DNA of 64,000 nucleotides from assembly GCA_951812895.1 (NCBI GenBank), contig OX638333.1:1478366-1542365 (forward strand), given 5' to 3'. Under the pieces are notes generated by a model. It ran no database searches, was not told where the DNA came from, and was given only the letters and a program-made list of their open reading frames with translations. This DNA comes from an uncultured Roseovarius sp. GTDB lineage: Bacteria; Pseudomonadota; Alphaproteobacteria; Rhodobacterales; Rhodobacteraceae. This document shows positions 34,037 to 49,663 of the stretch, one piece after another; positions within the stretch are counted from its first letter, which is position 1, and the number at the start of each line of letters is the position of its first letter. A program made the position numbers and the translations under genes.

Positions 34037-34039
34037 TGT

Positions 34040-35065
34040 TTATGCCCAATCCATAACAATTTTGCCTGAATTCCCCGAGATCATCGCGGCAAACCCGTCT
34101 TCAAAATCATCTATCGAAATACGGTGCGTGATCAGCCCGGACACATCCAGACCCGATTGCACCAACGCGGTCATCTTGTACCAGGTCTCAAACATCTCGC
34201 GGCCATAGATACCCTTGATATGCAGCATCTTGAAAATGACCGTATTCCAATCCACCGGAAACGCTGTCGGCGCGATCCCAAGTAGTGCGACTTTTCCGCC
34301 ATTGTTCATCCGCGCGATCATCTGTTGCATCGCAGGCGCTGCACCTGACATTTCAAGGCCCACATCAAACCCTTCGGTCATTCCAATCTCGTCCATCACG
34401 TCGCGCAACTGAACATTGGACACATCCACAACGTGCTGCACACCCATTCGCTTCGCCAGATCAAGCCGGTAGGGATTGATGTCGGTGATCACAACTTTGC
34501 GTGCGCCTACCTTCTGCGCCACCAGTGCGCCCATGATCCCAATAGGCCCGGCGCCGGTCACCAGCACATCCTCGCCCACCAGATCAAAGCTAAGCGCGGT
34601 ATGTACGGCATTGCCAAACGGATCGAAGATCGCTGCAATCTCGTCAGAAATGTCATCCGGAATCGGCACTACGTTGGCTTCTGGAATGCACAGATATTCT
34701 GCAAAGCTTCCCGGACGGTTCACACCAACTCCTTTGGTGTTTCTGCACAAATGCCCCCGCCCCGCTCGACAGTTCCGGCAGGTACCACAAACGATGTGCC
34801 CCTCTCCACTAACACGCTGGCCAATCCGGTATTTCCGCGCAGCCGCGCCACAATCGACGATTTCACCACAAAATTCATGCCCGACAACCATCGGCACAGG
34901 CACGGTCTTTGCGCTGAATTCATCCCAATTCCAGATATGAACATCAGTGCCGCAAATGGCCGATTTCTTGACCTTGATCAGAACATCACTAGGCCCTGGC
35001 TCAGGCACGGGCACATATTCCATCCACAGCCCCGGTTCGGGCTTGGACTTCACCAGTGCTTTCAT
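34040..35065 (-). CDS. tdh: L-threonine 3-dehydrogenase
   Basis: This 341-aa zinc alcohol dehydrogenase-family enzyme has the same length and start (MKAL...) as E. coli Tdh. Catalytic zinc Cys38 is in [15 protein letters not shown], the structural zinc cysteines are in [15 protein letters not shown], and the NAD fold is in [22 protein letters not shown]. The ATG at 35065 lies one base after the preceding stop (TGAAATG), a reinitiation layout; in-frame ATGs at 35077-35089 also exist. It oxidises threonine to 2-amino-3-oxobutyrate, the substrate of Kbl encoded two genes upstream. Confidence 0.93.
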
Positions 35066-35066
35066 T

Positions 35067-36041
35067 TCATTCTTCATGTTCATGTTCATTTTCCCACAAA
35101 TCAGTGCTGAGGTACTTTAGCCCGCTGTCACACACGACAAATGCCACGGTTCCACCCTTCTCAGGACCCTTCAATAGTTTTACCGCTGCGGCCAGATTGG
35201 CCCCCGCAGAATAACCGCCGAAAATACCCTCTCTGCGTGCCATCAATCTCGCAAATCTTACGGCCTCATCGCCTGAAACAGAGACCGTTCCGGCTAATTT
35301 GGTATCGTTCAGATGGCCCAATGAATTCATGGAATACCCGCCACCCTGTATCGGATGTTCCGGCTTAGACTGATCACCTCCCGAAATCGCCTCGGCCCCT
35401 TCGGGTTCGACCGCATAGCATTTTACTTCTTTCGGCGCGAAAAAACGCGCCGCTCCTCCAACCGTACCGCCGGACCCGGCGAAGTCACAAAACGCAGTGA
35501 CTGCACCGCTCGTCTGCTCCCATATTTCGGGTGCCGTGCCCATCTCGTGTGACTTCGGATTGGCCGCCACGCTAAATTGATCGGCCCGAAACGCACCGCG
35601 CTCCAGCGTAATCCGTTCTGCTTCCTCATTCACCTTCGCCAGATCGGCACCGGACACCTCTCCCTTACGGCTTCCTTCTACCTGCGGCACCCGCACAACT
35701 TCGGCACCTAAAGCCTGCATCATGCGCGCCCGCTCTTCGGAATTTCCATCACTCATCACGGCTACAAACGGGTGACCCATAACCCCGCACACAATGGCCA
35801 GGCCGGTCCCCATATTGCCGGAGGTCAACTCAACAACAATCTGCCCCTCGGCCAATTCCCCACTGGCACGTGCATCAGCTATCACCTGCCTTGCCGGGCG
35901 ATCCTTTTTTGAAAAGCCGGGATTGAGATAATCAAGCTTGGCCAGTAGACGGCCATCAAGCCCCATTTCGTCTCTAACACGAGACAAATCGACCAATGGC
36001 GTGTCACCAATCGCATCAATGATGGATGGCAGAATGGTCAC
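35067..36041 (-). CDS. PLP-dependent fold-type-II enzyme, cysteine synthase-like
   Basis: This 324-aa protein has the cysteine synthase/CBS fold: [12 protein letters not shown], Schiff-base Lys46 in [35 protein letters not shown] and [15 protein letters not shown]. In true CysK the lysine region reads NPGGSVKDR and the asparagine loop TSGNTG; both differ here. It lies between kbl and tdh with a four-base overlap to kbl. A role in serine, threonine or cysteine metabolism is likely, but the reaction is open. Confidence 0.75.
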
Positions 36042-37234
36042 TTGATGACCCCCAGTTCGCGACCAACAATTTCGAAGGCGGCGATTGCCTGATCCAGCAT
36101 CTCCCGCGTCAACGCCGCACTCATCTGGGTGCGAATTCGGTCCTGCCCCTTGGGCACCACCGGAAAGCTAAACGCCGTCACGTAAACACCATGTTCGTTC
36201 AACCGTGCCGCCATATCCTGGGCCAGCTTGGGATCCCGTAACATCACAGGGATGATTGCATGCTCACCCGGTAAAAGTTCAAACCCCAGCGCACCCATTT
36301 TTTCACGAAAATAGGCGGCGTTGTCCCACAACTGCGCGCGCAGATCGCCACCATTTTCCAACAGATCAAACACCTTCAAAGATGCTGCCGCAATCACCGG
36401 TGCCAAAGTGTTCGAGAAAAGATAAGGCCGCGACCTCTGCCGCAGCCAGTCAACAACATCCGCACTTGCCGCGGTATACCCGCCGGAGGCACCACCCAGC
36501 GCCTTACCCAATGTGCCGGTCATGATATCAACGCGATCAGATACACCAAACCGTTCGGCGGTTCCTCGGCCGGTTGGCCCAACGAACCCGGTGGAATGAC
36601 AATCATCCACCATGACCATCGCGTCATACTTGTCGGCCAAATCACAAATCTCATCCAGACGGGCGTAATACCCATCCATTGAAAACACGCCGTCAGTCGC
36701 AATCAGCCGATGCCGTGCACCCGCGGCCTCCTGCAGACAACGCTCCAGATCGGCCATGTCAGAATTGGCGTAACGCAGCCGCTGCGCCTTGCACAGCCGC
36801 ACGCCATCAATGATGCTTGCGTGGTTCAACGCGTCCGAAATGATCGCATCCTCAGGGCCCAGAATCGTCTCGAATAAACCTGTATTCGCGTCAAACGCGG
36901 CGGCATACAGAATGCTGTCTTGTTTCCCCAGAAACCCGGCAATCCGCTCTTCCAGCTCTTTATGCTCTTCCTGCGTGCCGCAAATGAACCTGACCGACGC
37001 CATGCCAAATCCATACCGGTCCAACGCCTCACGCGCGGATGCGATAATCTCTTCGTTATCGGCCAGCCCAAGGTAATTGTTGGCGCACAGGTTGATGACC
37101 CTCGCCCCCCCGGCAAGAGACACTTGCCCGGCCTGTTTCGAAGTGATCACACGCTCGGTCTTGTACAGACCCTCATCCCGCAACCCATCCAGCCGTCCGG
37201 CAATGTCCTGATCAAATCTTTCCGACGCGCGCAT
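36038..37234 (-). CDS. kbl: Glycine C-acetyltransferase (2-amino-3-ketobutyrate CoA ligase)
   Basis: This 398-aa alpha-oxoamine synthase has the family's full length. Schiff-base Lys244 is in [52 protein letters not shown] and [12 protein letters not shown] are the cofactor and substrate motifs. It joins glycine and acetyl-CoA, or splits 2-amino-3-oxobutyrate from Tdh into these. Placed with Tdh, it links the glycine formed by betaine demethylation to threonine and acetyl-CoA. A two-hairpin intergenic element lies just upstream. Confidence 0.93.
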
Positions 37235-37263
37235 AGTCTTGCCTTTCTTTTTTAGTCCCCGTT

Positions 37264-37341
37264 ATCTTTCTTTTTGCAAGAAATATCCCGGGGGAGACAC
37301 TGAAATCCCAACGGGTTTCAGTGTTGGGGGCAGAGCCCCCT
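37264..37341 (-). repeat. Two-hairpin intergenic element, copy 1 (between mttB and kbl)
   Basis: On the minus strand it reads: GGGGGC-TCT-GCCCCC hairpin (37340-37326), a variable hairpin with 9-bp arms (37324-37316 and 37305-37297), then CCCCCGGGATATTTC and GCAAAAAGAAAGAT. The first hairpin abuts the mttB stop codon. A second copy is at 46195-46257. The CCCCC block could also pair with the first GGGGG, so two exclusive folds are possible. Confidence 0.75.
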
Positions 37342-38857
37342 AATACCACGCTTCGGGAATTTCTTCCTTGCGCCGTGCGATATACGCCTGCAATTCCTCG
37401 TCCTTGGCCTGATCTATCGCTGGTCGCTCATAGCCGTTCAGCATCGAATTCCACCGCTCATAGGCACGGCGGCGCATATCCTTCTCCCCACCTTCCTCCC
37501 AGCTCTCGACATTCTCACTGTCACTCAGCTTAGGCTCGTAAAAGGCATGGGTGTAGTTCCGCATCGTATGTCCACAGCCCAGGAAATGACCCGCCGGTTC
37601 AACCTCGGTATAGGCATCGCGGGCCAGTTCATTGTCGTCCACAACCAACCCGTTCAGCATTTTCTGGTACCCACCCAGCCGATCGGCATCCATCACCAGC
37701 TTCTCGAAGCCAGTGCACAATCCACCTTCCATCCATCCAGCAGCGTGCAGAACAAAATTGGCTCCGGCCAGTGCTGTCGAATGCATCGAATCCGCACTCT
37801 CATAGGCAGCCTGCGCATCTTCGATCTTACTTGCAGTCAACGACCCGCCGCACCGCAACGGCAACCCGACACGCCGCGCCATCTGACCGATGGCATAGTT
37901 GGAAATCACCGGCTCGGGCATCCCGAAGGTCGGCGCTCCACTTTTCAAACTCATGGAAGACAGAAAATTACCCAGCACAAACGGCGCACCGGGGCGCACC
38001 AGCTGGGCAAATGCACAGCACATCATCGCCTCTGCCATGGCCTGGGTCACGCTGGCTGCGGTTGAAACCGGCCCCATCGCACCGGACAGGATAAAGGGCA
38101 CCACCACAATGCCCTGTCCCCGGCCGCAATAGACACGAATGGCCTCTGTCACAACCTTGTCCACCAACAGCGGTGAATTGGTGTTGACGTTGCCCATGAT
38201 GACACAATTTTCGTCCAGAAACTCTTTGCCATGCAGAATCTCAGCCATATCGACCGAATCCTGCGCCCGGCTCATCTCGGTGATCGCGCCCAGATGCGGT
38301 TTATCACTCCGGGTCATATGCATGTACACCATATCCAGATGCCGATGGCTGACCGGCACATCGCACGGCTCGCATATCACCAAGCCTGTGTGGTGCAGAT
38401 TGGGGTGCATATACGAAAGCTTCACCAGCTTCTCAAAGCTCTCCATATCGCCATAGCGTCGCCCGCCTTCCAGATCGCGCACAAATGGCGCGCCATAAAT
38501 TGGCGCAAACACCTGATTGTTGCCGCCAATGGTAACAGATCGCTCCGGGTTCCGCGCTACCTGCCGAAATTCCCCCGGGGCTTTGGCACACAGCTCTCTG
38601 ATCCAACCCGCATCGGCCTTCACCCGGGTCCCCTGCACATCCGCACCAGCTTCGTTCCAGATCCGATGCGCCTCCGGGTCATCCCGAAACTCAATGCCAA
38701 TCGTCTCGATGAGCCAGTCAACCTGCGCTTCAAGCCGCACAATGGTCTCTTCGTCGATTACATCAAAATAAGGCAGCGCCCGCTTTACATGGGGCGAAGT
38801 TGGCGCCGCGACCTCCACAGCACCACTATCCCGCCTGCCTCTTGCACGTCTTGCCAT
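37340..38857 (-). CDS. Trimethylamine methyltransferase (MttB)-family protein, copy 1
   Basis: This is a 505-aa MttB-superfamily TIM barrel: ALPYFDVIDEETIVRLEAQVDWLIETIGIEF at the start, then TGLVICEPCDVPVSHRHLDMVYMHM, VNTNSPLLVDKVVTEAIRVYCGRGQG, PFILSGAMGPVSTAAS and AGWMEGGLCTGFEKLVMDAD. The frame has no internal amber codon, so it is of the non-pyrrolysine class, some of which demethylate glycine betaine or proline betaine to a corrinoid protein. No corrinoid protein gene is in the window. It is divergent from a LysR regulator. Substrate betaine is inferred from the cluster. Confidence 0.85.
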   Translation of the reverse strand: MARRARGRRDSGAVEVAAPTSPHVKRALPYFDVIDEETIVRLEAQVDWLIETIGIEFRDDPEAHRIWNEAGADVQGTRVKADAGWIRELCAKAPGEFRQVARNPERSVTIGGNNQVFAPIYGAPFVRDLEGGRRYGDMESFEKLVKLSYMHPNLHHTGLVICEPCDVPVSHRHLDMVYMHMTRSDKPHLGAITEMSRAQDSVDMAEILHGKEFLDENCVIMGNVNTNSPLLVDKVVTEAIRVYCGRGQGIVVVPFILSGAMGPVSTAASVTQAMAEAMMCCAFAQLVRPGAPFVLGNFLSSMSLKSGAPTFGMPEPVISNYAIGQMARRVGLPLRCGGSLTASKIEDAQAAYESADSMHSTALAGANFVLHAAGWMEGGLCTGFEKLVMDADRLGGYQKMLNGLVVDDNELARDAYTEVEPAGHFLGCGHTMRNYTHAFYEPKLSDSENVESWEEGGEKDMRRRAYERWNSMLNGYERPAIDQAKDEELQAYIARRKEEIPEAWY

Positions 38858-38948
38858 GCAGAAACCTCCCCTGCTACAGAATCAATCTATCGTAACTTCG
38901 CACACCTGTGATCCTTGCTTTTTTTGGGGCTTTGGATAACGTCAGATT

Positions 38949-39845
38949 ATGCAAAAACTATGGAAGCTTGTTTCATCACCCCGCCATCTGCTTGTGTTTG
39001 AGGCTGCGGCCCGCACCGGGTCCTTCACCCGTGCCGCACAAGAGCTGAACGTACAACAACCCGCGGTATCGGCCGCCATCAAACAACTGGAATCGTCTCT
39101 GGGCACGCTTTTGTTTGCCCGCGCGCACCGTTCGGTCACCCTTACTCATGCCGGAGAACGGTTGTTTAATGAGGTGTCATCGGCCTTTGACCGCATCCAC
39201 CAGACGGCAAACATGCTCAGCCAGCGCAGTGCACAAAATCACGTGACCCTCACGGCATCCACGGCATTTGCCCATAACTGGATGGTGCCCCGATTGTCCG
39301 ATTTTCACCGCGCCCAGCCGGATGTGGACCTGCGACTGCAAACCTCTGAACGCGAACCTGATATCGACGCCGAAGGCATCAGCCTCGCCATCCGCCGTGG
39401 AAATGGGGATTGGCCCGGATGTGACAGCCACAAGATCGCATCAGAAATCATCACCCCCATCGCGTCACCCCGTGTTATGGCGGCGGCTGTGAACCTGACG
39501 ACAGTGCCAAACCTGCTGGCACAGTCTCTGATTCACCTCGAAGAGCCCATACGCGACCGCCCCGGCTGGACTGAATTCTTCGCCCACTGGAACGTTCCCT
39601 ATTCTGAACCCAAAACCGGCCTGCGCCTGAATGACTATGCACTGGTGCTGCAGGCCACCATGGCCGGCGAAGGTTTCGCGCTGGGCTGGCACCACACCAC
39701 CACAAACCTCACCTCCCAGGGCCTCCTCACCGCCCGCAACGAATGGGCATGGGAAACCGGTGCCGGGTTCCACCTCGTCTGGTCCTCCGGTGTTCCGCTC
39801 AGCACTCAAGCATCAAAGGTTCGGGATTGGTTGATTTCTCTCTAA
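38949..39845 (+). CDS. LysR-family transcriptional regulator (GcvA-like)
   Basis: This 298-aa regulator has an N-terminal winged helix (LLVFEAAARTGSFTRAAQELNVQQPAVSAAIKQLESSLGTLLFAR in pieces) and a C-terminal periplasmic-binding-like effector domain ending with GFALGWHHTTTNL. This end resembles GcvA-type regulators. It is divergent from mttB copy 1 (91-base gap) and is the likely regulator of that gene or operon. The effector may be a betaine or glycine derivative; that is inference. Confidence 0.87.
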   Translation: MQKLWKLVSSPRHLLVFEAAARTGSFTRAAQELNVQQPAVSAAIKQLESSLGTLLFARAHRSVTLTHAGERLFNEVSSAFDRIHQTANMLSQRSAQNHVTLTASTAFAHNWMVPRLSDFHRAQPDVDLRLQTSEREPDIDAEGISLAIRRGNGDWPGCDSHKIASEIITPIASPRVMAAAVNLTTVPNLLAQSLIHLEEPIRDRPGWTEFFAHWNVPYSEPKTGLRLNDYALVLQATMAGEGFALGWHHTTTNLTSQGLLTARNEWAWETGAGFHLVWSSGVPLSTQASKVRDWLISL

Positions 39846-39976
39846 ATTGGCTGCAGTTTGAAATCTCACAATCGAGCAGTATTGAACACCAGAAATCAAG
39901 CTTGTTTAGTTTTTCGTACGACTGTAAGTTCATGCTGAAAGTGCCTGCATTGCAGAAAATAAGGGGCTCACAGACT

Positions 39977-40150
39977 ATGATCAAAAAATTTGTTTTGAGC
40001 ATCTGCACGCTACTTGTGACATCATCCGCCGCTCTTGCAACGGTACCAGTACCAAACCCAATCGCTGGTGTGGCAGGCCCTTGGGGGTTGGTTGTTGGCG
40101 GTGGAGCATACGTCGCCTATCGCGTAATCAAACATCATAGAAATCGGTGA
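39977..40150 (+). CDS. Tiny secreted protein with PxPxP sorting-like signal, copy 1
   Basis: This is a 57-aa protein. Residues 1-21 are a signal peptide (MIKKFVLSICTLLVTSSAALA). The remaining 36 residues are a short VPVPNPIAG motif, a hydrophobic span (GPWGLVVGGGAYVAYRVI) and a basic tail KHHRNR. This is the three-part layout of PEP-CTERM-type sorting signals, with no other domain. It shares a near-identical C-terminal core with the next gene and is followed by an exosortase gene, so it is the likely substrate. The ribosome site (AAGGGG) is spaced rather far. Confidence 0.72.
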   Translation: MIKKFVLSICTLLVTSSAALATVPVPNPIAGVAGPWGLVVGGGAYVAYRVIKHHRNR

Positions 40151-40176
40151 TTGAATAATTTTGGGAGATAATGGCG

Positions 40177-40353
40177 ATGCTGAAGAAAACTATTTTTAGC
40201 GGTACGTTACTCATACTGTCACCATTGTTTGCGTTTGCAGGCGGCTTGCCTATACCAGGTCCGATCGCAGGCGCGGCAGGACCTTGGGGTTTGGCCGTTG
40301 TCGGTGGCGCCTATGTTGGCTACCGCGTTATCAAACGTTTAAGAAACCGTTGA
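40177..40353 (+). CDS. Tiny secreted protein with PxPxP sorting-like signal, copy 2
   Basis: This is a 58-aa protein. The ATG at 40177 has GGGAGA eight bases ahead and is preferred over 40171. Signal peptide MLKKTIFSGTLLILSPLFAFA, then LPIPGPIAGAAGPWGL, a hydrophobic span (AVVGGAYVGYRVI) and the tail KRLRNR. Against copy 1 the signal peptides differ, while the C-terminal 36 residues agree at nearly all positions, showing selection on the sorting-like part. It ends 15 bases before the exosortase gene. Confidence 0.75.
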   Translation: MLKKTIFSGTLLILSPLFAFAGGLPIPGPIAGAAGPWGLAVVGGAYVGYRVIKRLRNR

Positions 40354-40368
40354 TTTGAAACACCGCAC

Positions 40369-41307
40369 ATGGCGCTGGATCGTGTGATGAGCTTCAAAAC
40401 ACCTCTTTCTCTAAAAGAGGTTTGGTTCTGGACTCTGTGTCTATTTGTATTCTCACGAATTGCAATCTGGGCCGAAGGGCCTGATCCCACTCAACTCCTC
40501 ACATCTCTTTTTAATCATAACCTAGTATACTGGCTGGCGTTCACAGTTATTTTTGTCCGCCTGTCTCGAGTATCGTCCAGCCTTAAGGCTGACAAACTCA
40601 GCATTGCGACGTTTTATACCTCATTTGGATTGTTGATCGTTCTCGGCATAATCGCAATACGACCGTTTGATGGCATTGCGGCTGGATTTATTGGCGCAAT
40701 GCTTCTTTGGCGGCATCAGCGAGAGTCCAACATGATGGCCGCAGCGTTTGTGTTTTTCGCGCTGTTTCTCAATTTGTTCGTTGGCTCTGCTTTGTTCACC
40801 ATCTTCAAATCACAAATAATCCTGATAGATTCTGCGCTGGCAGAATTTGCGTTGCGCTTCGTTGGCTTTGACGTTTTTCGCAACCTGAACTCTCTTGGTA
40901 CATCAGAAGGTCACACAATCGCTGTCATCGGCGCTTGTTCAGCGTTCAATAATATTTCTTTGGCTGCTCTCGCTGCAGTATCTGGTCTGCTCATCGTGAA
41001 AGACAAACTTACAAAGTCTGACCTTTGGCCAATTTTACTGATTTGCTTTGCGATGCTGATATTTAACACCATTCGCCTGTCACTCTTTGCTGTTAGTCGA
41101 GCAGGCTATGAATACTGGCACGAAGGTTCAGGGGCTCCTGTCCTCGCTATAGTTCAAACAGCTCTATTGTTCGCTGCTGTATTTATTTTGCGAAACGTCA
41201 GCATACGCAAAAGGTGGTGTAATGGCATTCCGTATCTGCGCAGTTATCGCCCTATTACTACTTGTCATGCTGAGATCGAACGTTGCAATTGGTATCAAAG
41301 AATATGA
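40369..41307 (+). CDS. Exosortase/archaeosortase-family protein
   Basis: This 312-aa integral membrane protein has about eight hydrophobic helices. The three catalytic residues of exosortases appear in the right order and spacing at external helix ends: Cys190 (IGACSAFNNISLAAL), Arg236 (IFNTIRLSLF) and His251 (YEYWHEGSGAP). It would cut and transfer proteins with a PEP-CTERM-like tail at the inner membrane. There is no fused protease or EpsI domain. The start may be 40369 or 40387. The last 28 residues overlap the next gene by 86 bases, which is unusual. Its substrates are probably the two tiny proteins. Confidence 0.82.
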   Translation: MALDRVMSFKTPLSLKEVWFWTLCLFVFSRIAIWAEGPDPTQLLTSLFNHNLVYWLAFTVIFVRLSRVSSSLKADKLSIATFYTSFGLLIVLGIIAIRPFDGIAAGFIGAMLLWRHQRESNMMAAAFVFFALFLNLFVGSALFTIFKSQIILIDSALAEFALRFVGFDVFRNLNSLGTSEGHTIAVIGACSAFNNISLAALAAVSGLLIVKDKLTKSDLWPILLICFAMLIFNTIRLSLFAVSRAGYEYWHEGSGAPVLAIVQTALLFAAVFILRNVSIRKRWCNGIPYLRSYRPITTCHAEIERCNWYQRI

Positions 41308-41710
41308 TCTTATCTCCGGTACCGACAAAACTATTAGCGCACTCGGATTTGAAGTTTTGCCGGCCAAAGGCAAACCGGGAACGACCAGAGCACAAGGCGT
41401 ATGGTTTTCCTATCCTGAATGCGATCAACCAGCTGTCGCAATTCCATTTAGTATAATGCTCGATGCTGCATCCTACCGAAACCTTCATCGCGTCCAGACC
41501 TACGAGACATACATTCAGTATTTTGATGAAACTTGGGTAGAGCAGGATAAGTTCGCACTTCTTTATAAATTCGCCAAACAAAAATCATTGTATTCGCTTA
41601 ACTCAAGCCAGAACTATCCTGCGAAAAAAGCACTCATGATCGCGACCGATCCAGCCTGTGCTTCTCCTCCGCAATTTGATCTGGCCGCTGCCTGGAAATT
41701 TGGCACGTAA
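41222..41710 (+). CDS. Membrane-anchored protein of the exosortase locus (EpsI-like position)
   Basis: This 162-aa protein has an N-terminal hydrophobic helix (FRICAVIALLLLVMLRSNVA) followed by an extracytoplasmic domain with paired cysteines (YPECDQPAV, DPACASPP) and many tyrosines (YETYIQYFDETWVEQDKFALLYKF). An AAGGTGG site precedes ATG. I recognise no family. It takes the place next to the exosortase where EpsI-type accessory proteins are often encoded. It starts 86 bases inside the exosortase frame. Confidence 0.65.
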   Translation: MAFRICAVIALLLLVMLRSNVAIGIKEYDLISGTDKTISALGFEVLPAKGKPGTTRAQGVWFSYPECDQPAVAIPFSIMLDAASYRNLHRVQTYETYIQYFDETWVEQDKFALLYKFAKQKSLYSLNSSQNYPAKKALMIATDPACASPPQFDLAAAWKFGT

Positions 41711-41729
41711 TGACAGGAAATGTAGCGAT

Positions 41730-42548
41730 ATGAACATTTTCTTTGTTTACCTCATCATTTTCTCATTGGTGGTCGCCGCCACTTATGCCGAATTCTATCA
41801 CGACAAAGTTGAACACAGGCCAAACCGCAACCAAAGATGGCCCGCTAATTTCCTGTTGATGATCATCAACAGCAGCCTTTTGTCAGCGATTCCAATCAGC
41901 ACAATCGCCTTCGCCGAACTCGCTTCATCAAAAAACACCGGTCTTCTAAACCTTATTGAACTACCACTCTTTATTGACGTCATCGTCACCATTAGCGTTC
42001 TGACTCTTCTGGGTTACGCGATTCACAGAATGTTTCATCAAATCCCGATCCTGTGGCGTCTGCATAGAGTGCATCATTCAGACACAGTGATCGATGGCAG
42101 CTCCGGATTTCGGCATCACCCGTGCGAGCCACTAATTTCAACCGTGATCTACGCCTGCGGAGCATTCCTGTTTGGATTGGAACCCATCACGGTGATAATT
42201 GTATCCTTTCTGGAGCTTCTCTTTGCATTACTCACGCATTGTACAATCAGATTGCCTTTGGGCTTGGAGCGGTGGCTCACGGCCGTTCTCATCACCCCAC
42301 GACTACACGAAATCCACCATTCGAATTACGTAAAAGAAACCGATTCAAATTTCGGATCCTTTTTGACAATTTGGGACCATCTGTTCGGCACATTTCTTTT
42401 CCAACCACGCAGGAAGAAAAGCGAATTCAAAGTTGGCGTAAAAGAAGTCAACCAAAACCAAGCTTGCAATTTTGAATTTCTGCTGACCAGCCCATTATTG
42501 AGTTTAAAGCCGGAAGCTGAATTGAAAACCAGAAATGACAATTCGTAA
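41730..42548 (+). CDS. Sterol desaturase/fatty acid hydroxylase-family protein
   Basis: This 272-aa membrane protein has the di-iron histidine clusters of the family: HRMFH (99-103), HRVHH (112-116), HHP (129-131) and HEIHH (193-197). Four to five hydrophobic helices surround them. AGGAAA precedes the ATG at 41730. It would hydroxylate or desaturate a lipid chain in the inner membrane. As last gene of the exosortase island, with 19 bases to the previous gene, it could modify a lipid used as anchor; that is inference. Confidence 0.82.
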   Translation: MNIFFVYLIIFSLVVAATYAEFYHDKVEHRPNRNQRWPANFLLMIINSSLLSAIPISTIAFAELASSKNTGLLNLIELPLFIDVIVTISVLTLLGYAIHRMFHQIPILWRLHRVHHSDTVIDGSSGFRHHPCEPLISTVIYACGAFLFGLEPITVIIVSFLELLFALLTHCTIRLPLGLERWLTAVLITPRLHEIHHSNYVKETDSNFGSFLTIWDHLFGTFLFQPRRKKSEFKVGVKEVNQNQACNFEFLLTSPLLSLKPEAELKTRNDNS

Positions 42549-42637
42549 CAAGTAAGTACGGCAAAGAATCTCATAGATTCGAAACCAGTTGGCAATGTGG
42601 TAAAGTGGAGCTCGCTCCAGTGATGAAGGGACCCCCA

Positions 42638-43096
42638 ATGCCCAAACCCATCCAAACCGCCTATGCCCGAACGACCGCATATGATTTTCCCGGTGCAATC
42701 ACGCTCCGCATCCTGCTCACCTCGGAACAGACCGGGGGCACCCATGTGGTGTTCGAAGATATCGTTCAGCCCAATATCGGCCCACCCCGCCATATCCACC
42801 ATGATCAGGATGAAACCTTCTTCTTTTTAGAAGGCGAATTCGATGTCGAAGTGGACGGCCAGCTCTACCATATGGCCCCGGGCGACGTGGCCTTCATCCC
42901 CCGCGGCGCAACTCACGCCTTCAAAAATGTGGGCGAAACACCGGGACGCCTGCGCTATATCTTCTCACCAGCGCTTGAAATCGAAAACATGTTCCTGGCC
43001 TTCCACGCGGCCCAAAGCAATGGCGATCTCAACACTGACAAGATGGCCGAAATCTCGGCCCGATACGGCCAGTCCTTTGTTGGCCCACCGCTATGA
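42638..43096 (+). CDS. Cupin-domain protein
   Basis: This 152-aa single cupin has metal-ligand motif PRHIHHDQDETFFFLEGEFDVEVDG and second motif PGDVAFIPRGATHAFKNVGETPGRL. AGGGA lies seven bases before the ATG at 42638. The GC-rich codon use returns to the window's normal style here, marking the end of the AT-richer island. The substrate or sensing role is unknown. It is convergent with the hydantoinase gene, with no spacer. Confidence 0.83.
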   Translation: MPKPIQTAYARTTAYDFPGAITLRILLTSEQTGGTHVVFEDIVQPNIGPPRHIHHDQDETFFFLEGEFDVEVDGQLYHMAPGDVAFIPRGATHAFKNVGETPGRLRYIFSPALEIENMFLAFHAAQSNGDLNTDKMAEISARYGQSFVGPPL

Positions 43097-45097
43097 TCAC
43101 CCGGCGATCCGCGGCCGCCCGCTGGCTTCTACCGTGATCTCTGCTTCCAGAAACACCTCGCGCGCCTCTGCCTCTGCGGATTTAACATCCCGCTCAAAGC
43201 TCACATGAATATCCTCTGCCCCGGCCCGTTCCGCCTCAGCCCGGGCATCACGTTCCAACACTGCCCGCAATGCAGCCATCGCCGTATCGGCCTCGGTATA
43301 ATCTTCCGGCCCGCTGTCCAGATGCACCCGGAACCGACCCTCGGCCGGGCTGGTCACTGTCCCACTGCGCCGGATCGTCACCCGGCCGACGACTGCGCCG
43401 ATCGCGTTGGCAACACCAGCATGTTCCGGCAACGTCATCTGGCAGGACAACCGATCACCCACTGCCGGATAATAACTGGACGCAGACGCCCCCAGGCCAA
43501 TCACCGGCACGTTCAGCCCCGCCTCGATCCGCACCAATCCCCGGTGATGGTCAAGGCCCCGCTGCATCAGAACATGCCGCGCAAGTTGACCGGGTGGCAT
43601 CCCAAAATCCACTTCTTCCTCATCAAAAGCAGCCTCTAACAAAGCCAAACTGGTCTGCTGCGTGAGCTGATCCACAATCATCTGCGCCATCACCATCGAA
43701 TCCGGATTCAACATATTGCCCGAACCGGTGCGCTTTCGCCCGAGCAACTCCATCGCCTTTTCTGCAGCTTTGGCATCCCAAGCTTCCAACCGCCCCATTA
43801 CATGACTTGCATCAGATGGTGTAACACCAGCCACCTGTACCAGCCCGCGGTTAACCAGCCTTTTGAGCGCAGAGGTCTCCAACCGTGTACGCAACACTTT
43901 GCCAACCGGTTTCACACCCTCGCCGATCCGTTCAAGCAGGATGGCATCCTTTGGCTGTAACCCGCCGGCATCTATGCCGGGCACCGCCCGCACAAACCGC
44001 GCATCATATTCACCCACGGCATCACTGCGCAGTTGCTCGTCCAACACCTGATGCACCACCCCTGGCGCCTCCAGCGCCATCAGGCTCACTGGCACCACCC
44101 GGCGCGGGCCTAGCGTTACGCCACCAACCAAACCCTCATCAATGACATGCACTTCGCTGTCACCGCCCAGACCACTGGTGCGCATCGCCACTGCCTCGAC
44201 CATTGTACGCCACGGACCCACCTGTGCACCTGCCGGGTCTATCGCAGGCTTTCCGCCGCGCAGCACCGCTACATCTGTCGTGGTTCCCCCGATATCCGAG
44301 ACCAGTGCGTGTTCTGCACCCGTCATCCACCGCGCGCCAACAATGCTCGCAGCCGGACCGCTCAGAATGGTTTCAATCGGCCGATACCGGGCCTGTTCTG
44401 CGGAAATCAGCGCGCCATCGCCGCGCACCACCATCAACGGTGCATCGATCCCAAGCTCGACCAGCTTGCCTTCGGCCTTTTCGATCAACCGCGCAATCAT
44501 CCCGATCAGCCGCGCATTCAACAGCGCAGTCAGCGCCCGTTTCGGCCCGTTCAGTTTGGCCGACAAATGATGTGAGCAGGAAACCGGCCGTCCCGTTAAC
44601 TCGGCGATTATTTCAGACGCGGCCAGCTCGTGCGCTGGATTGCGGGTTGCGAATTGTGAGGCAACTGCATAGGCGGAAATCCCTTGATCAGTCTCTAACC
44701 ATACCGAAAGTGCACCTTCGTCAAATGGCTTAGCCTCTCCACCCGCATGGTTATGCCCGCCTGATATCACCACGGACGGATCACCGCCCAACGCATCATT
44801 TAACCCATGTGCCAGCAGATCCTGCTCTCGAAATCCGATGTAGACCAGACCAACCCGGCCACCCTGTCCCTCGACCAGCGCATTGGTGGCCAATGTGGTG
44901 GACAGCGATGCCATGCCAATTTCTGAAACATCCGCGCCACTGCTTTCCAGAACCGCGGCAATCGCCTTGCCAATCCCCTCGGCCAGATCGTGCCGCGTTG
45001 TCAGCGACTTGGCGCTGGCAATCACATCCCGTTCATCCCGGATCAGAACGGCATCGGTGTATGTCCCGCCCGTATCAACGCCCAACAGCAAAGCCAT
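43097..45097 (-). CDS. Hydantoinase/5-oxoprolinase-family ATPase (HyuA-like)
   Basis: This 666-aa protein has the ASKHA fold of HyuA: LLGVDTGGTYTDAVLIRD at the start, SLSTTLATNALVEGQGG, then DIGGTTTDVAVLRGG in the second half of the fold, and a C-terminal region with GLGASASSYYPAVGDRL. Members open cyclic amides such as hydantoins or 5-oxoproline with ATP. No HyuB partner is adjacent, which is unusual because the two subunits normally pair. The start has GGGAG. The substrate is unknown. Confidence 0.85.
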   Translation of the reverse strand: MALLLGVDTGGTYTDAVLIRDERDVIASAKSLTTRHDLAEGIGKAIAAVLESSGADVSEIGMASLSTTLATNALVEGQGGRVGLVYIGFREQDLLAHGLNDALGGDPSVVISGGHNHAGGEAKPFDEGALSVWLETDQGISAYAVASQFATRNPAHELAASEIIAELTGRPVSCSHHLSAKLNGPKRALTALLNARLIGMIARLIEKAEGKLVELGIDAPLMVVRGDGALISAEQARYRPIETILSGPAASIVGARWMTGAEHALVSDIGGTTTDVAVLRGGKPAIDPAGAQVGPWRTMVEAVAMRTSGLGGDSEVHVIDEGLVGGVTLGPRRVVPVSLMALEAPGVVHQVLDEQLRSDAVGEYDARFVRAVPGIDAGGLQPKDAILLERIGEGVKPVGKVLRTRLETSALKRLVNRGLVQVAGVTPSDASHVMGRLEAWDAKAAEKAMELLGRKRTGSGNMLNPDSMVMAQMIVDQLTQQTSLALLEAAFDEEEVDFGMPPGQLARHVLMQRGLDHHRGLVRIEAGLNVPVIGLGASASSYYPAVGDRLSCQMTLPEHAGVANAIGAVVGRVTIRRSGTVTSPAEGRFRVHLDSGPEDYTEADTAMAALRAVLERDARAEAERAGAEDIHVSFERDVKSAEAEAREVFLEAEITVEASGRPRIAG

Positions 45098-45140
45098 CTC
45101 GCACGCTCCCTTGTCTCTTCAACGGCGGTCTAACGTGTTT

Positions 45141-46196
45141 TCAGCGGCTTTCCAGCCCCTTTACGGCATCCTGCAGTCGTTTAACTGCCCATCTGGCGGC
45201 ATCTGCAACCGTTTCGTCCGGGTCGTCGCATAATGTTTGCGCGACGGGTACCAATGAAGGGTCATCAGAGTTACCAACAGCATAGAGAACATTGCGAACA
45301 AACCGGTCCCTGCCGATGCGCTTAATCGGACTGCCGGAAAACTTCACACGAAACGCGGCATCATCCAATGCTGCCAATTCAGCCAGCTTCGGAGCCTTCA
45401 GATCGTCGCGCGCGTGATAACGCACCTCCCGGGCTTCAACAGCGAACTTGTTCCATGGACACACCGCAAGACAATCATCACAGCCATAAATCCGGTTGCC
45501 CAATTTGGCCCGCAGTTCTTCGTCAACCGCACCCTTATGTTCAATCGTCAGATAAGAAATACAGCGCCGCGCATCCAGCTGATAGGGCGCCGGAAATGCC
45601 TCTGTCGGGCAGATATCCAAACAGGCCCGGCAAGACCCACAATGATCGATTTCTGGTGAATCAGTCTCTATTTCAAGCGTTGTGAATATCGACCCGATAA
45701 AAAACCAGTTTCCCAGCTCCCGGCTTACCAGATTGGTGTGCTTCCCTTGCCATCCCAGCCCCGATGCCTGCGCCAGCGGTTTTTCAGGCACCGGCGCGGT
45801 GTCGACAAACACCTTCACCTCACCACCCGCCTCAGCGATCAGCCACCGCGCCAACCGCTTCAGCCGCTTTTTCACCAGATCATGATAGTCTTTGTTTCGC
45901 GCATAAACCGAAACAGTTCCAACATCCCCTTGCGCCAACGTCGCCATCGGATCTTCTGCAGGGGTGTAGCTCTCTGCCAACATGATGACAGACCGCGCTT
46001 CTGGCCAAAGCACATCAGGCGCCCCCCGCCAATGGCTGCGCTCGGCCAGCCAGCTCATTTGCCCGTGATACCCCTGCTCCAGAAACGCCGCCAACCGTTC
46101 CGGCACCTGCGGCACATCCCATGGGCGGCACACACGGGCTGGCTCAAACCCTTCCACAAGGGCCTGCGCCACCAGTCTCTGTTTCAGGCTGGTCAT
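45141..46196 (-). CDS. queG: Epoxyqueuosine reductase
   Basis: This 351-aa protein has the QueG layout: cobalamin-binding N-terminal part, ferredoxin-like domain with two 4Fe-4S motifs ([13 protein letters not shown] and, further on, [11 protein letters not shown]), and a C-terminal HEAT-like end ([31 protein letters not shown]). [21 protein letters not shown] is a family signature. It makes the last step of queuosine synthesis in tRNA. The start codon lies inside copy 2 of the two-hairpin element. Confidence 0.92.
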
Positions 46197-46257
46197 CTTT
46201 CTTTTTGCCGGAAATATCCCGGGGGAATCGCTACAGGCGATGGGGGCAGAGCCCCCT
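46195..46257 (-). repeat. Two-hairpin intergenic element, copy 2 (between GST gene and queG)
   Basis: It keeps the GGGGGC-TCT-GCCCCC hairpin (46256-46242), the CCCCCGGGATATTTC block and GCAAAAAGAAAGAT of copy 1. The middle hairpin has 5-bp arms (46227-46231 and 46237-46241) of wholly different sequence. The element fills the whole gap from the GST stop to the queG start codon. Confidence 0.75.
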
Positions 46258-46259
46258 TT

Positions 46260-46925
46260 TTAGAAATCCAGATCAGCATAATGCGCAGGTGGCGGAAAAC
46301 CGGGCACCTGATCAGCCAGAATGTTGCGAAACGCCGGGCGCGATTTAATCTTGGCATACCATTGCTTGACCACATCCGACCGGTTCCAGTCCACATCAGA
46401 GATATAATCCAGCGCGCTCAGATGCGCCGCCGCGGCAAAATCCGCCAAGGTCATCGCATCACCGGCCAGCCACCGCCGCCGGTCCAACAGCCAGGCCATG
46501 TAATCGAGATGAAACTTGATCGCCCGCGCACCTGACTTCACATTGCCGCTGTCTGGAAACCCCTTTCCCATCACCTTCTTGTTGACCCGCTCATAAAGCA
46601 GTTTCGACGTCACTTCGGAATGGAACTTGTCATCAAACCAGGCCACCAACCGGCGTACCTCGTACCTACCCTCGATCCCGCTTGGTATCAGTGCAGGTTC
46701 CGGATGCAGCTCTTCGATATACTCACAGATCGGCGTGCTTTCCGATAGGGTCATATCCCCCAGCTTCAGCACCGGAACTTTACCCGCCGGATTGCGGCGC
46801 AGGAAATCGGGATTGCCCTCCCAATACCGTTCCTCCACCAATTCGCATTCGATACGCTTCTCCGCCAGACACAGCCGCACCTTGCGGCAAAACGGAGAAA
46901 GGGGAACATGGAAAAGCCTGGCCAT
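46260..46925 (-). CDS. Glutathione S-transferase-family protein
   Basis: This 221-aa protein has an N-terminal thioredoxin-like domain (LFHVPLSPFCRKVRLCLAEKRIECELVE; ESTPICEYIEELHPEPAL binds glutathione) and an all-helical C-terminal domain (LADFAAAAHLSALDYISDVDW). It belongs to the general bacterial GST group with SPFCRK at the active site. It conjugates or reduces with glutathione. It is separated from queG by the two-hairpin element and probably shares its transcript. Confidence 0.87.
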   Translation of the reverse strand: MARLFHVPLSPFCRKVRLCLAEKRIECELVEERYWEGNPDFLRRNPAGKVPVLKLGDMTLSESTPICEYIEELHPEPALIPSGIEGRYEVRRLVAWFDDKFHSEVTSKLLYERVNKKVMGKGFPDSGNVKSGARAIKFHLDYMAWLLDRRRWLAGDAMTLADFAAAAHLSALDYISDVDWNRSDVVKQWYAKIKSRPAFRNILADQVPGFPPPAHYADLDF

Positions 46926-46983
46926 TACTCTGAAAACACCTTGTCTTGGTTGAATCCCTCAATGCCCCGGTTTCAGGTGCAAT

Positions 46984-47709
46984 TCAATCCTCGAAACACG
47001 CCGCACGACCATCATTGCGGATCGTTGCCGCACCGTCCAGTATGCCCGCCGCCCGTTTGCGCAATGCAGCCGTCGGCCTTTTCGCCGACCGTTCCTTGGG
47101 ATTGGGCAGAACCGCCGCCAATCGCGCCGCTTGTTGCGGACTTAGCTTTCCGGGGGATACTCCAAAATAATGCTGGGCCGCGGCATCAATCCCAAACACC
47201 CCTTCGTCAAACTCCGCAATGTTGAGATAAACCTCGATAATCCGCCGCTTGGACCAGAACACCTCGACCAGCGGCGTAATCATCGCTTCAAGCGCTTTGC
47301 GGCTCCAGCTGCGGCCATGCCAGAGATAGACATTCTTCACCACCTGCTGCGATATCGTTGATGCCCCGCGCCCGCTGCCCTGGGCAATTGCGGTGCGGAT
47401 GGCGGCCATGTCAAATCCCCAGTGCCTGCAAAAATTGGCATCTTCTGCGGCAACAACAGATCGCGCCATCACCGGTGCCACCTCATCAATCGACACCCAT
47501 TGATAGTCTATTCCGCCCAGACGCCCGGCCTCCTGCCGCATATAATGCGTCTTGGGCGGGTTGATCACCCGGTGCGCCGCAACCACGGCCAGGGTCAGAA
47601 CAACAGCCCCCAGACACAACCGCACCAGCCACCGCCGCACCCTCCGGCGCAGCGGCAGACCCTTGCGGCTCCGCCTGCGTTTCTTTGATGTTGTCCTGCG
47701 TTTCGCCAT
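46984..47709 (-). CDS. mtgA: Monofunctional biosynthetic peptidoglycan transglycosylase
   Basis: This 241-aa protein has a basic cytoplasmic start, one transmembrane helix (about 28-48), then the GT51 domain: VVAAEDANFCRHWGFD with the catalytic glutamate, GASTISQQVVKNVYLW, WSKRRIIEVYLNIAEFDEGVFGIDAAAQHYFG and LAAVLPNP. It polymerises glycan strands of the wall from lipid II on the outer face of the inner membrane. Confidence 0.92.
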   Translation of the reverse strand: MAKRRTTSKKRRRSRKGLPLRRRVRRWLVRLCLGAVVLTLAVVAAHRVINPPKTHYMRQEAGRLGGIDYQWVSIDEVAPVMARSVVAAEDANFCRHWGFDMAAIRTAIAQGSGRGASTISQQVVKNVYLWHGRSWSRKALEAMITPLVEVFWSKRRIIEVYLNIAEFDEGVFGIDAAAQHYFGVSPGKLSPQQAARLAAVLPNPKERSAKRPTAALRKRAAGILDGAATIRNDGRAACFED

Positions 47710-47755
47710 GCAGGTTCAGCTATAACCTCAGCCGCGCCAATGCAAAACCGTGAAT

Positions 47756-48058
47756 TCAGCGAGAACAGGCCCAAACCGATGGCTGGCACCCGCTGTCATA
47801 ATTGCGGCAATAGGCGACGGCCGAGCTTTCCGCCGCGGCCCTCGTCGGGCCAAGCGCCCAGCCGTGTCCATCGTTTACACCACGCGCCATTGCGCCACAT
47901 GCATTGTAAAAGGTCTGGATCCGATCACAGTTCCAGCTACAGCCGTCCATCGCTGCACCATAGGCATCATTTTCTGAATACTGGTCAGCCGACCAGCCAT
48001 AGGCCCCATTCGGTCCAATCCGCCAAATTGGATTCACGCAGGCAATTGACCCGTCCAC
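47756..48058 (-). CDS. DUF4189-like protein, possibly 5'-truncated
   Basis: This 100-aa ORF starts at a GTG. Cysteine- and glycine-rich segments (AMDGCSWNCDRIQTFYNACGAMARGVNDGHGWALGPTRAAAESSAVAYC in pieces, then CQPSVWACSR) fit DUF4189, a family of small secreted proteins. The usual signal peptide is missing, and the 5' end overlaps the end of the hydrolase gene by 25 bases. It may be the remnant of a gene joined to the hydrolase by deletion, or use an unseen start. Confidence 0.45.
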   Translation of the reverse strand: MDGSIACVNPIWRIGPNGAYGWSADQYSENDAYGAAMDGCSWNCDRIQTFYNACGAMARGVNDGHGWALGPTRAAAESSAVAYCRNYDSGCQPSVWACSR

Positions 48059-48810
48059 ACAACCGGCAGTTTCGGCGCCTGAATCATCTGCTCGACATAG
48101 GCCGGCCTGATCTGCCCGCCAACGCGCTGCATCGCCCGGCGAAACTTGCGCGGTTTTCCTCCAATGGCGTAGCGGATCAGCGGATCAAGCGCCTCTTTCT
48201 GCTTCAGCTCACTGGCAACATCATGCCCGGCATCGGGGATCATGTATTGCGCCACACCCGGTATCTCCGGGAATCTGAGTGCCTGCCGACGTTCCGTGCG
48301 CGTCCCGCTGTGCAACAAGAAATATTTCGTGCGGTCCGCGCGAAACCGGTCCACCGCGGAAAACCTGAACTTTTGAATCTGCCGGCGGAAAAAGCTCCAT
48401 CTGGGGTCATCCGGCACCACATCGGGATCAACCGAATATTGCGGTGCAATTGCAATCACGGCATCAAAGGCGAAATACCGCGCCACGATCAATGCCATCG
48501 TTCCCCCCATCGAATTCCCCAGCGCGACAACACGCTTTGCGCCAGTTGCCTTCACGGTTTGCCGAATGGTAACCAAAATCCGCTCAATCATATCGGTTTT
48601 ATTCAGCCAGCACCGGCTTTCATCGGTGACAAACAGAACATGATTGTCGCCATCGCCACTGGCCGTACGGAAAAACTCGATATCCGGTTCCTGATATCGA
48701 TGCTCTCCCACACCAGAAAAGCTCACAACCAGGGTTTCAAACCGGCCCGGCAAATACCGGATACGCAGGGATTCGTCGTCATATACTGTGCTAAGTGGAT
48801 CTGTTTTCAT
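48034..48810 (-). CDS. Alpha/beta-hydrolase-like protein, copy 1
   Basis: This 258-aa protein starts at the ATG at 48810 (GAGGG ahead). Nucleophile Ser100 is in VVALGNSMGGTMAL, a GxSxG elbow; a histidine candidate lies in IPDAGHDVA. YLPGRFETLVVSFSGVG and FVTDESRCWLN are shared with the paralogue next door. The C terminus is 15 residues longer than in copy 2 and ends in the region overlapping the DUF4189-like ORF. The substrate is unknown; similar proteins lie near polysaccharide genes. Confidence 0.72.
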   Translation of the reverse strand: MKTDPLSTVYDDESLRIRYLPGRFETLVVSFSGVGEHRYQEPDIEFFRTASGDGDNHVLFVTDESRCWLNKTDMIERILVTIRQTVKATGAKRVVALGNSMGGTMALIVARYFAFDAVIAIAPQYSVDPDVVPDDPRWSFFRRQIQKFRFSAVDRFRADRTKYFLLHSGTRTERRQALRFPEIPGVAQYMIPDAGHDVASELKQKEALDPLIRYAIGGKPRKFRRAMQRVGGQIRPAYVEQMIQAPKLPVVWTGQLPA

Positions 48811-48931
48811 CTGCCCTCGCCCTTTTTTTGTTAGAGCAAGAACGCCAGAGCTTTGTGACATGATTGCGGAGAAATCTTGCTGATTTTATTACCTCGTCCG
48901 AGCATACTTGTTGAAGAGCGCAGTCCCTCGC

Positions 48932-49663
48932 CTACGCAGCATTCTGGATATATGTCTGCCTGTGTTGCCCACCAATGCGCTGCACGGCTCGGCGAAATTT
49001 GCGCGGCTTGCCAGCTATTGCATACCGGATCAGCGGCTCCAGCACCCCTTTGCGCTTGAGATACGTGGCCAGCCGATGCCCGGCCCCCGGAATCATATAT
49101 TGCCCCACGCCCGGCACTTCCGGAAATCTCAGCGCCTGCCGCTGCTCTTTTGGGATACAACTGTGTAACAGGTAATACCTCGTCCGGTCCGCCCGAAAGG
49201 TATCCACAACCGGAAACCGAAATCCCTGTATCTGGCGACGAAAAAACCGCCACCTGTGTTCCTCAGGGACAACCTCGGGATCAACGGAATACTGCGGCAC
49301 AATCGCAATCGCGGCATCGAAGGTGAAATACCGCGCCACGATCAGCGCCATCGTCCCACCCATCGAATTTCCCAGGGCGACAACACGCTGGGCACCCGTT
49401 TTCGCTACGGTCTGCCGGATCGCCACCAGAATTTTTTCAATCATGTCGCCATTGTTCAGCCAGCACCGGCTTTCATCAATGACAAATAGTACGTGATTGT
49501 TTCCATGGTCGCTTGCAATGCTGAAAAACTCTTCCACGGGGGGTGCAGCGCGCTCACTGCCCACACCGGAAAAGCTGACCACCAAGGTCTCGAACCGCCC
49601 CGGCAGGTACCGAATCCGAAGCGGTCCATCATCAACAATTGTTGTCAGCGGACTTTCCGTCAT
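48932..49663 (-). CDS. Alpha/beta-hydrolase-like protein, copy 2
   Basis: This 243-aa tandem paralogue of the next gene aligns without gaps over most of its length, including Ser100 in VVALGNSMGGTMALIVARYF and the C-terminal IRYAIAGKPRKFRRAVQRIGGQ. The gap to copy 1 is 121 bases. GGTGAAGG precedes ATG. Duplication with retention of the active-site elbow suggests both are functional or have divergent substrates. Confidence 0.72.
   Translation of the reverse strand: MTESPLTTIVDDGPLRIRYLPGRFETLVVSFSGVGSERAAPPVEEFFSIASDHGNNHVLFVIDESRCWLNNGDMIEKILVAIRQTVAKTGAQRVVALGNSMGGTMALIVARYFTFDAAIAIVPQYSVDPEVVPEEHRWRFFRRQIQGFRFPVVDTFRADRTRYYLLHSCIPKEQRQALRFPEVPGVGQYMIPGAGHRLATYLKRKGVLEPLIRYAIAGKPRKFRRAVQRIGGQHRQTYIQNAA

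Follow-up and report, generated by a model that had tools for sequence, protein, structure and literature searches.

What does an exosortase act on when the only proteins of its genome that carry the tail expected of a substrate are little more than that tail? The question is raised by an uncultured Roseovarius species, in a 64,000-nucleotide stretch of contig OX638333.1 (assembly GCA_951812895.1) that is called here the window, as a whole, and in whose coordinates positions are counted. Five genes lie there on the forward strand between positions 39977 and 42548: two tandem genes for tiny predicted secreted proteins, followed by genes for an exosortase-family membrane protein, an accessory protein with two cysteines, and an enzyme of the fatty-acid-hydroxylase superfamily. 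A first-pass annotation of the sequence had described this same block, and both its coordinates and its gene identities are confirmed. We think it rather probable, judging from the sequences, that the five genes form a dedicated and probably mobile exosortase cassette with passenger-less substrates; what the sequences show directly is the five-gene set, its reappearance elsewhere and the invariant positions of the enzyme.

The exosortase and the recurrence of its cassette

The third gene (40369..41307) encodes a membrane protein of 312 residues that matches the Pfam family EpsH (PF09721) at 33.2 bits, for a cut-off of 25.7. Because EpsH is the sole Pfam family above cut-off in this protein, no fused protease is seen in it, as the first-pass annotation had said. 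The residues named there (Cys190, Arg236 and His251) also stand: these three, together with Asn233 and Gly255, are invariant in the alignment of all 16 sampled members of the clade, the window's included, and the protein carries the motifs Asn233-x-x-Arg236 and His251-x-x-x-Gly255. The case that would have spoken against the first-pass annotation, a match to some other family with these residues varying, did not arise. The invariant motifs described for EpsH by Haft et al. (2006, PMC1569441) are Cys-x-Gly, Asn-x-x-Arg and His-x-x-x-Gly. Classic EpsH is also expected to have eight or more transmembrane helices; a crude Kyte-Doolittle scan, as a rough indication only, gives five 19-mers above 1.5 in the window exosortase. 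The exosortase assignment holds for Pfam and not for NCBIfam, where no model is matched at E up to 10, TIGR04178 (cut-off 23 bits) included. This generic signature is passed by one of the 16 clade members (24.6 bits, in G732; G-numbers denote genomes and L-numbers fetched loci), and the named NCBIfam exosortase models by none. PF09721 is itself unmatched in the five other members scanned (L048, L049, L006, L007 and L051), and the remaining ten were outside the Pfam scan, so that the kinship of the other members rests on searches started from the window and on the alignment. By sequence comparison, the window exosortase is thus a member of a divergent alphaproteobacterial clade that has no specific NCBIfam model.

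Relatives are found in four of 394 genomes of the family, one of 60 of the genus, two of 292 of the order and 11 of 327 of the class, the genome of the window being part of each count. A further collection of genome contigs gave two loci, of which one merely repeats a family match (L049 = L005), which brings the distinct loci to 16 in total. A first pattern scan of genome contigs gave 23 pattern matches with no relative among them, a tblastn search of plasmids with two of the exosortases gave no match, and sequence searches of the PDB returned nothing meaningful.

The five genes are closely spaced (26 bp, 15 bp, an overlap of 86 bp, and 19 bp), 131 bp after a LysR gene and 56 bp before a cupin gene, and none of them has a stop within its frame. 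The first-pass annotation had pointed to co-occurrence of the five genes as a check, and the full set is indeed found again in a metagenome-assembled genome of an uncultured Neomegalonema (L048; Neomegalonemataceae, Rhodobacterales, according to NCBI), in the order hydroxylase, two tiny proteins, exosortase, accessory. Between the two genomes the exosortases are 42% identical, the accessories 30% and the hydroxylases 39%, and the neighbours differ (LysR and cupin genes in the window, dapB-like and purC-like genes, identified by eye, in L048). A second metagenome-assembled genome (L049/L005) has one tiny protein, the exosortase and the accessory, on a contig that ends inside the accessory gene, so that the hydroxylase cannot be judged there. 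Since the gene order has changed and the neighbours differ, the cassette is probably a functional set that moves. Its composition, with a guanine-plus-cytosine (GC) content of 45.9% at 39900-42550 versus a mean of 54.5% in windows of the same size (only one of 1227 being lower), suggests acquisition.

The tiny proteins are the most unusual part of the set. The first (39977..40150, 57 residues) has a signal peptide ending in ALA, followed by TVPVPNP, IAGVAGPWGLVVGGGAYVAYRVI and KHHRNR; the second (40177..40353, 58 residues, or 60 if an alternative in-frame ATG at 40171 is used) has a signal peptide followed by GGLPIPGP, IAGAAGPWGLAVVGGAYVGYRVI and KRLRNR. Their mutual identity is 58%, and their differences, 17, 14 and 30 at the first, second and third codon positions, follow a coding-like pattern. 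The five such proteins available (two in the window, two in L048, one in L049) align with 13 invariant columns and have in common an A-x-A at the end of the signal peptide, a P-x-P, a glycine, GPxG, two tyrosines and a terminal NR. We rejected the idea of chance small open reading frames on this conservation in two other genomes and on the codon-position bias. As read by eye from the alignment, only 7-11 proline-rich residues lie between the A-x-A site and the end of PxPxP, so that these proteins have no room for a folded passenger. No strong homologue of them was found to occur without this exosortase: at E < 1e-28 they are present in two of the 394 family genomes, both exosortase-positive, and the next best match stands at 5.2e-4.

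The sorting tail and its carriers

The tail consists of PxPxPxAG, a hydrophobic segment and a basic end of Arg/Lys. A genome-wide search, as advised by the first-pass annotation, was made with a tail model and found two carriers in the window genome, both of them the tiny proteins. It is because the tail pairs with the exosortase and has no other carrier in this genome that the tiny proteins are probably dedicated exosortase substrates with almost no passenger. In other genomes of the clade the tail is found on small proteins beside the exosortase (94 residues in G829, 95 in G720), on a 131-residue protein in G900 that is accompanied by a 65-residue protein made of signal peptide plus tail alone, and on the products of three tandem open reading frames (218, 201 and 230 residues) elsewhere in G949. 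A tail protein of about 345 residues goes with the exosortase in G660. Since the same exosortase clade is thus accompanied elsewhere by larger tail proteins, the tiny predicted substrates lie at the lower end of a size range, and the earlier claim of an exosortase module with dedicated tiny substrates stands for the module and its recurrence and not for the clade at large.

The three tandem proteins of G949 (L075 982-3117) are predicted to be secreted, have (E/G)APAPVAGxG tails and are encoded on another contig than the exosortase. The first of them has a sub-threshold match to choice-of-anchor C (28.7 of 120 bits), choice-of-anchor domains being known to carry varied sorting tails. Further candidate tail matches of G949 are on contigs C42 and C117 (12-row model).

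These larger proteins call for a consideration of the possibility that an ordinary sorting system is now without its true cargo, which would make the cassette a remnant or a minimal version and the tiny proteins vestigial or decoy tails without a product. The tail proteins of G949, G900 and G660 are what this hypothesis would predict for the relatives of the exosortase, and the rarity of the enzyme (four of the family genomes and a single one of the genus, own genome included) also goes in its direction. However, two tiny copies are kept in the window and again in L048, with A-x-A, PxP, GPxG and NR conserved and with differences biased towards third positions; the whole set of five occurs in two genomes, each with its own gene order and surroundings; and no window gene of the five is broken by a stop. 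We therefore regard the loss of cargo as unlikely.

The pairing of tail and exosortase is supported by genome counts. With a model of 12 rows, the tail is found at E < 1e-4 in six of 15 exosortase-positive genomes and in none of 55 exosortase-negative ones (negative, that is, for model A5 at E 0.001 only, and not for other exosortase types). When the rows of G949 and G900 are left out, the model still recovers the C-terminal tails of both (E 6.7e-4 and 1.8e-3), which makes two of the eight positive genomes outside the model; the same model gives a match at 0.05 in G721, apparently the end of a transporter, and among the 55 negatives a single match (G668, E 0.006) that is internal to a protein, no C-terminal tail being picked up in any of them. 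What stands independently in the co-occurrence is that no third genome was found to carry a strong tiny-protein homologue while lacking the exosortase. Weak tail matches were read by eye at L015-L042 (28 loci), L077-L078 (2) and L086-L109 (24), the match not being covered for six near contig ends (L090, L096, L099, L102, L103 and L107); they are mostly internal to other proteins or in other frames, with the exceptions of G226 and of G627 and G692, two "negative" genomes with PEP-CTERM-like tails. The hydrophobic-basic C-terminal ends seen in G660, G671 and G721 have no PxPxP, and that of G721 is transporter-like.

Membership of the tiny proteins in the known tail families was rejected, no VPEID-, VPLPA-, PEP-, PFE- or PID-CTERM model being at cut-off. 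In NCBIfam, PEP-CTERM (TIGR02595) and VPLPA-CTERM (TIGR03370) do not match any of the five at E up to 10, and their best CTERM scores are below cut-off (PFE_CTERM, 13.1 of 24 bits; PID_CTERM, 16.6 of 26 bits).

A small predicted secreted protein (fewer than 100 residues) adjoins the exosortase in nine of the 16 loci, which counts in favour of our reading. Another hypothesis makes the tiny proteins partners of the exosortase, as small subunits in the membrane or as regulators (a helper or an inhibitor peptide for instance), the real substrates being encoded elsewhere and unrecognised. Their genes are immediately upstream of the exosortase gene in an apparent operon, as one would expect of a subunit, and their weak, glycine-rich membrane segment may persist uncut. 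Nevertheless, the same type of tail is common to larger predicted secreted proteins of exosortase-positive genomes, as a sorting tag would be, and G142, G390 and G616 encode their small protein (83-97 residues, predicted to be secreted, with a conserved cysteine pair and a different tail) downstream rather than upstream, and with a different sequence. This explanation seems to us distinctly improbable.

In a sister group of the exosortase, the small predicted secreted proteins encoded downstream (L006 6636-6905, L007 10767-11018 and L051 6626-6919) have a conserved cysteine pair of the form ANCxASF...C and a SAPxxxLG tail, and an 85-residue predicted secreted protein upstream of the exosortase of G732 (L069 5436-5693), with NCNS...C, resembles them; curated families give no match at cut-off for any of these four. 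In two relatives, predicted secreted proteins that resemble one another (NLPESRAVGAAFL...) directly follow exosortase and accessory at L070 6777-7434 and L072 4231-5268, the latter ending in a TAPAPPLEAAAVALLAVAAYVGRRQR tail and the former being cut by the contig end.

Accessory, hydroxylase and points on the other side

The accessory protein (41222..41710, 162 residues) has one N-terminal hydrophobic helix, followed by a domain that is predicted to be periplasmic and in which Cys67 and Cys146 are conserved. An accessory-like gene is present directly downstream of the exosortase gene in 16 of 16 loci, where the two genes share 4-152 bp (the start codons having been picked by eye), and its product begins in all cases with a hydrophobic stretch; two cysteines 67-82 residues apart are present in 15 of the 16, the first being absent from G660. 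In the window the exosortase frame extends 86 bp into the accessory gene (41222-41307), versus an overlap of 4 bp in L048, and its extra C-terminal residues have no counterpart there. A profile made from six members clearly matched the accessories of L064 and L065 (E 1e-5), and since it is weak or silent elsewhere, it is position, helix and cysteine pair that speak for the unity of the family beyond these eight. NCBIfam has no match for any of the 16 accessories (for the window's, at E up to 10) and Pfam no meaningful match for the ten scanned, again including the window's. EpsI (TIGR02914), which is found beside exosortases or fused to them, is likewise not recognised in the window accessory by NCBIfam or Pfam (the presence of TIGR02914 in the scanned library was not checked). 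Judged by these scans, the accessory occupies the position of EpsI, yet is not recognisably EpsI.

The last gene (41730..42548) encodes a membrane enzyme of 272 residues with a match to PF04116 (100.5 bits) and the histidine boxes HRMFH, HRVHH and HEIHH. The one NCBIfam model listed for it is OlsE (NF052566), at 91.9 bits; as this is far under the curated cut-off of 475, the relation to OlsE is a superfamily kinship only. The window and L048 enzymes (39% identical) match each other at 191 bits. Among the ten listed of 49 papers from a literature search, no report pairing an exosortase with a fatty acid hydroxylase was met; marine roseobacters hold an OlsE homologue of unknown lipid target, as mentioned in a review of aminolipids (PMC11631085).

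Several observations weigh against our reading of the cassette, and the hydroxylase provides the first of them. Such an enzyme is present in two of the 16 clade loci (several of them being short or truncated at a contig end), and plasmid-borne members of this large and common superfamily, matched by 246 plasmid records, score nearly as high as the L048 enzyme, the best at 162 versus 191 bits. The gene could therefore be there by chance, the working set being exosortase, accessory and small substrate. We consider this somewhat unlikely, since in both cassettes, last in one and first in the other, the hydroxylase gene has the orientation of the other genes and lies only a short distance from its neighbour in the set; it also shares the low GC content in the window (45.1%) and has its highest score within the window-L048 pair; moreover, the third tiny-protein locus ends before the gene could be seen.

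The other points on this side concern the enzyme, the tail and the accessory. The Cys-x-Gly of classic EpsH reads Cys-Ser-Ala in the window, and has its glycine in one of the 16 members (G660). None of the members of the clade has a known reaction or product. In a tree of 17 exosortases, ten of the 14 inner branches are unsupported, and the three tiny-protein systems do group together (64/84 support), but with the long branch of the window genome's second exosortase among them. The hydrophobic segment of the tiny tails is glycine-rich and weak, with no 19-mer above 1.5 on the Kyte-Doolittle scale beyond the signal-peptide region. The accessory profile is weak for L067 (0.048) and L072 (0.48), and leaves six others unmatched at E 1. 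All six genomes at E < 1e-4 supplied rows to the 12-row tail model, so that the co-occurrence of tail and exosortase is partly circular, the model being built from the same proteins. Short tail models also discriminate poorly, as tail proteins of the relatives pass unrelated curated models: the 131-residue protein of G900 passes MYXO-CTERM (24.5 bits, cut-off 20) and the 95-residue protein of G720 passes LPXTG_anchor (18.5 bits, cut-off 15.9). Finally, G226, which is without this exosortase clade, has a similar C-terminal tail (APVPVPAAGGMLGLALVGGAAVAMRKRK) that is close to PEP_CTERM_FxDxF (46.9 bits, cut-off 50), and PxPxPxAG-like tails may for this reason serve other exosortases. The G226 protein is the 179-residue product of an open reading frame (L028 1477-2016) with an APVPVPAAGG tail, in a genome of the same family as that of the window.

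The second exosortase just mentioned is encoded elsewhere in the window genome (L012 6296-7348, at about 4.169 Mb of C1); it is XrtH-like (54 of 86 bits), adjoins glycosyltransferase-like genes, and could in principle act on the tiny proteins. The first-pass annotation had inferred a self-contained system, and the second exosortase weakens this. At L012 11835-12347, near that enzyme, is encoded a 170-residue Thr/Pro-rich repeat protein ending in VPVVPGTGG, a hydrophobic segment and ARSTRQM, perhaps a substrate with a different tail type.

A proposed chemistry and the known systems

If the cassette with passenger-less substrates is accepted, one can propose how it would work. Both tiny proteins, whose A-x-A pattern is seen in all five sequences, would be exported through their signal peptide and cut at this site, then retained in the inner membrane by the glycine-rich C-terminal segment and the basic tail. 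The Cys/Arg/His site of the exosortase would cut at or just past PxPxP and form a thioester with the new C-terminus, a step suggested by the conserved residues and by models of exosortases and archaeosortases. The remaining 7-11 or so proline-rich residues would then go to an acceptor, for which a membrane-lipid amine is the most plausible candidate, and the outcome would be a small product of lipopeptide type, at the surface or secreted; precedents are the lipid-amine attack on the enzyme thioester proposed for archaeosortase, with PssA/PssD needed for maturation (PMC7157517), and the glycerophosphoethanolamine-containing group on the new C-terminus of rhombosortase substrates (PMC6219818). 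The hydroxylase-family enzyme, in view of its place in two cassettes, may modify the acceptor lipid, and the two-cysteine accessory may carry a disulfide and would present either the substrate or the acceptor at the outer face. Peptide maturation, with cleavage of the tiny proteins and attachment of the peptide to a lipid that is perhaps hydroxylase-modified, is thus what we infer for the cassette. Its boldest form, a ribosomal lipopeptide factory in which the exosortase is a C-terminal ligase joining a proline-rich peptide of 7-11 residues (TVPVPNP and GGLPIPGP are example candidates) to a hydroxylase-tailored membrane lipid, is put forward very tentatively, and we would not bet on it.

One of the closest known systems is PEP-CTERM/EpsH as presented by Haft et al. 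(PMC1569441). In both, Cys, NxxR and HxxxG are invariant in a polytopic membrane protein, the secreted partners have a proline motif, a hydrophobic segment and a basic end, and the gene that directly follows encodes a further protein, which is EpsI in that system and the two-cysteine accessory in ours. The cassette differs from it by Cys-Ser-Ala, by an accessory that matches no EpsI or other model, by substrates of 57-58 residues whose tail has no PEP and matches no PEP-CTERM model, and by the absence of exopolysaccharide genes among 12 flanking proteins, whereas classic EpsH is reported in that paper to lie among such genes in 90% of cases. Archaeosortase A (PMC7157517) resembles the exosortase of the cassette as a sortase-like cysteine enzyme acting with lipid-synthesis enzymes, but it is archaeal and these enzymes are homologues of phosphatidylserine synthase and decarboxylase. 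The rhombosortase/GlyGly-CTERM system (PMC6219818) shares the removal of a C-terminal tag followed by modification of the new C-terminus; the rhombosortase is a rhomboid serine protease, from another enzyme family, and the substrate studied there, VesB, is a full-size protease.

With OlsE the hydroxylase would share lipid hydroxylation, the score far under the curated cut-off being the difference. VPLPA-CTERM has a similar Pro/Ala motif, hydrophobic segment and basic end, but its model, which is in the scanned library (it appears for L028), is not matched by the five tiny proteins. In the VPEID-CTERM system, tiny secreted substrates go with an exosortase E that is fused to a CAAX protease. The first-pass annotation had seen in it the nearest precedent; beyond the tiny secreted substrates, this is not borne out in sequence, the window having neither the CAAX-protease fusion nor the VPEID motif nor an NCBIfam match at E up to 10, with no CTERM model at cut-off and no VPEID model listed (the presence of the VPEID-CTERM and exosortase E models in the scanned library was not checked).

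According to Pfam, the LysR side of the cassette encodes a flavin mononucleotide (FMN) oxidoreductase, an alcohol dehydrogenase, a pyridoxal-phosphate (PLP) enzyme, an aminotransferase-fold enzyme, MttB and LysR, and the cupin side the cupin, hydantoinase A, QueG, a glutathione S-transferase, a transglycosylase and a hydrolase. No exopolysaccharide enzyme family was found among these 12 proteins (32060-49663), and an exopolysaccharide locus was rejected for the window on this basis; the relatives L051 and L069 adjoin genes that resemble polysaccharide genes by eye. A defence system was rejected too, PADLOC giving no match at E 0.01, and a promoter and terminator scan gave fewer matches than in shuffled sequence. 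The MttB-family methyltransferase gene (37340-38857, Pfam 722 bits) has no in-frame stop, and a second open reading frame at 61881-63386 is MttB-like by eye. The alcohol dehydrogenase, PLP-dependent enzyme and aminotransferase-fold enzyme lie in a row at 34040-37234 and look, by eye, like a threonine/glycine catabolic set.

Exosortase-family systems themselves are already known; what is new here is a conserved exosortase cassette with probably passenger-less substrates. It draws attention to a clade of alphaproteobacterial exosortases, accompanied by a two-cysteine partner and a PxPxPxAG tail, that the scanned NCBIfam release models, generically, in one of 16 members. The cassette is also a small test bed for exosortase chemistry, with two recognisable substrates only, each of them nearly passenger-less: once matured, the peptide would count roughly twelve residues at most, and mass spectrometry could solve it fully, C-terminal adduct included. 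If the lipopeptide reading were true, a protein-sorting enzyme would have been turned into the maturase of a natural product, a signal or a surfactant.

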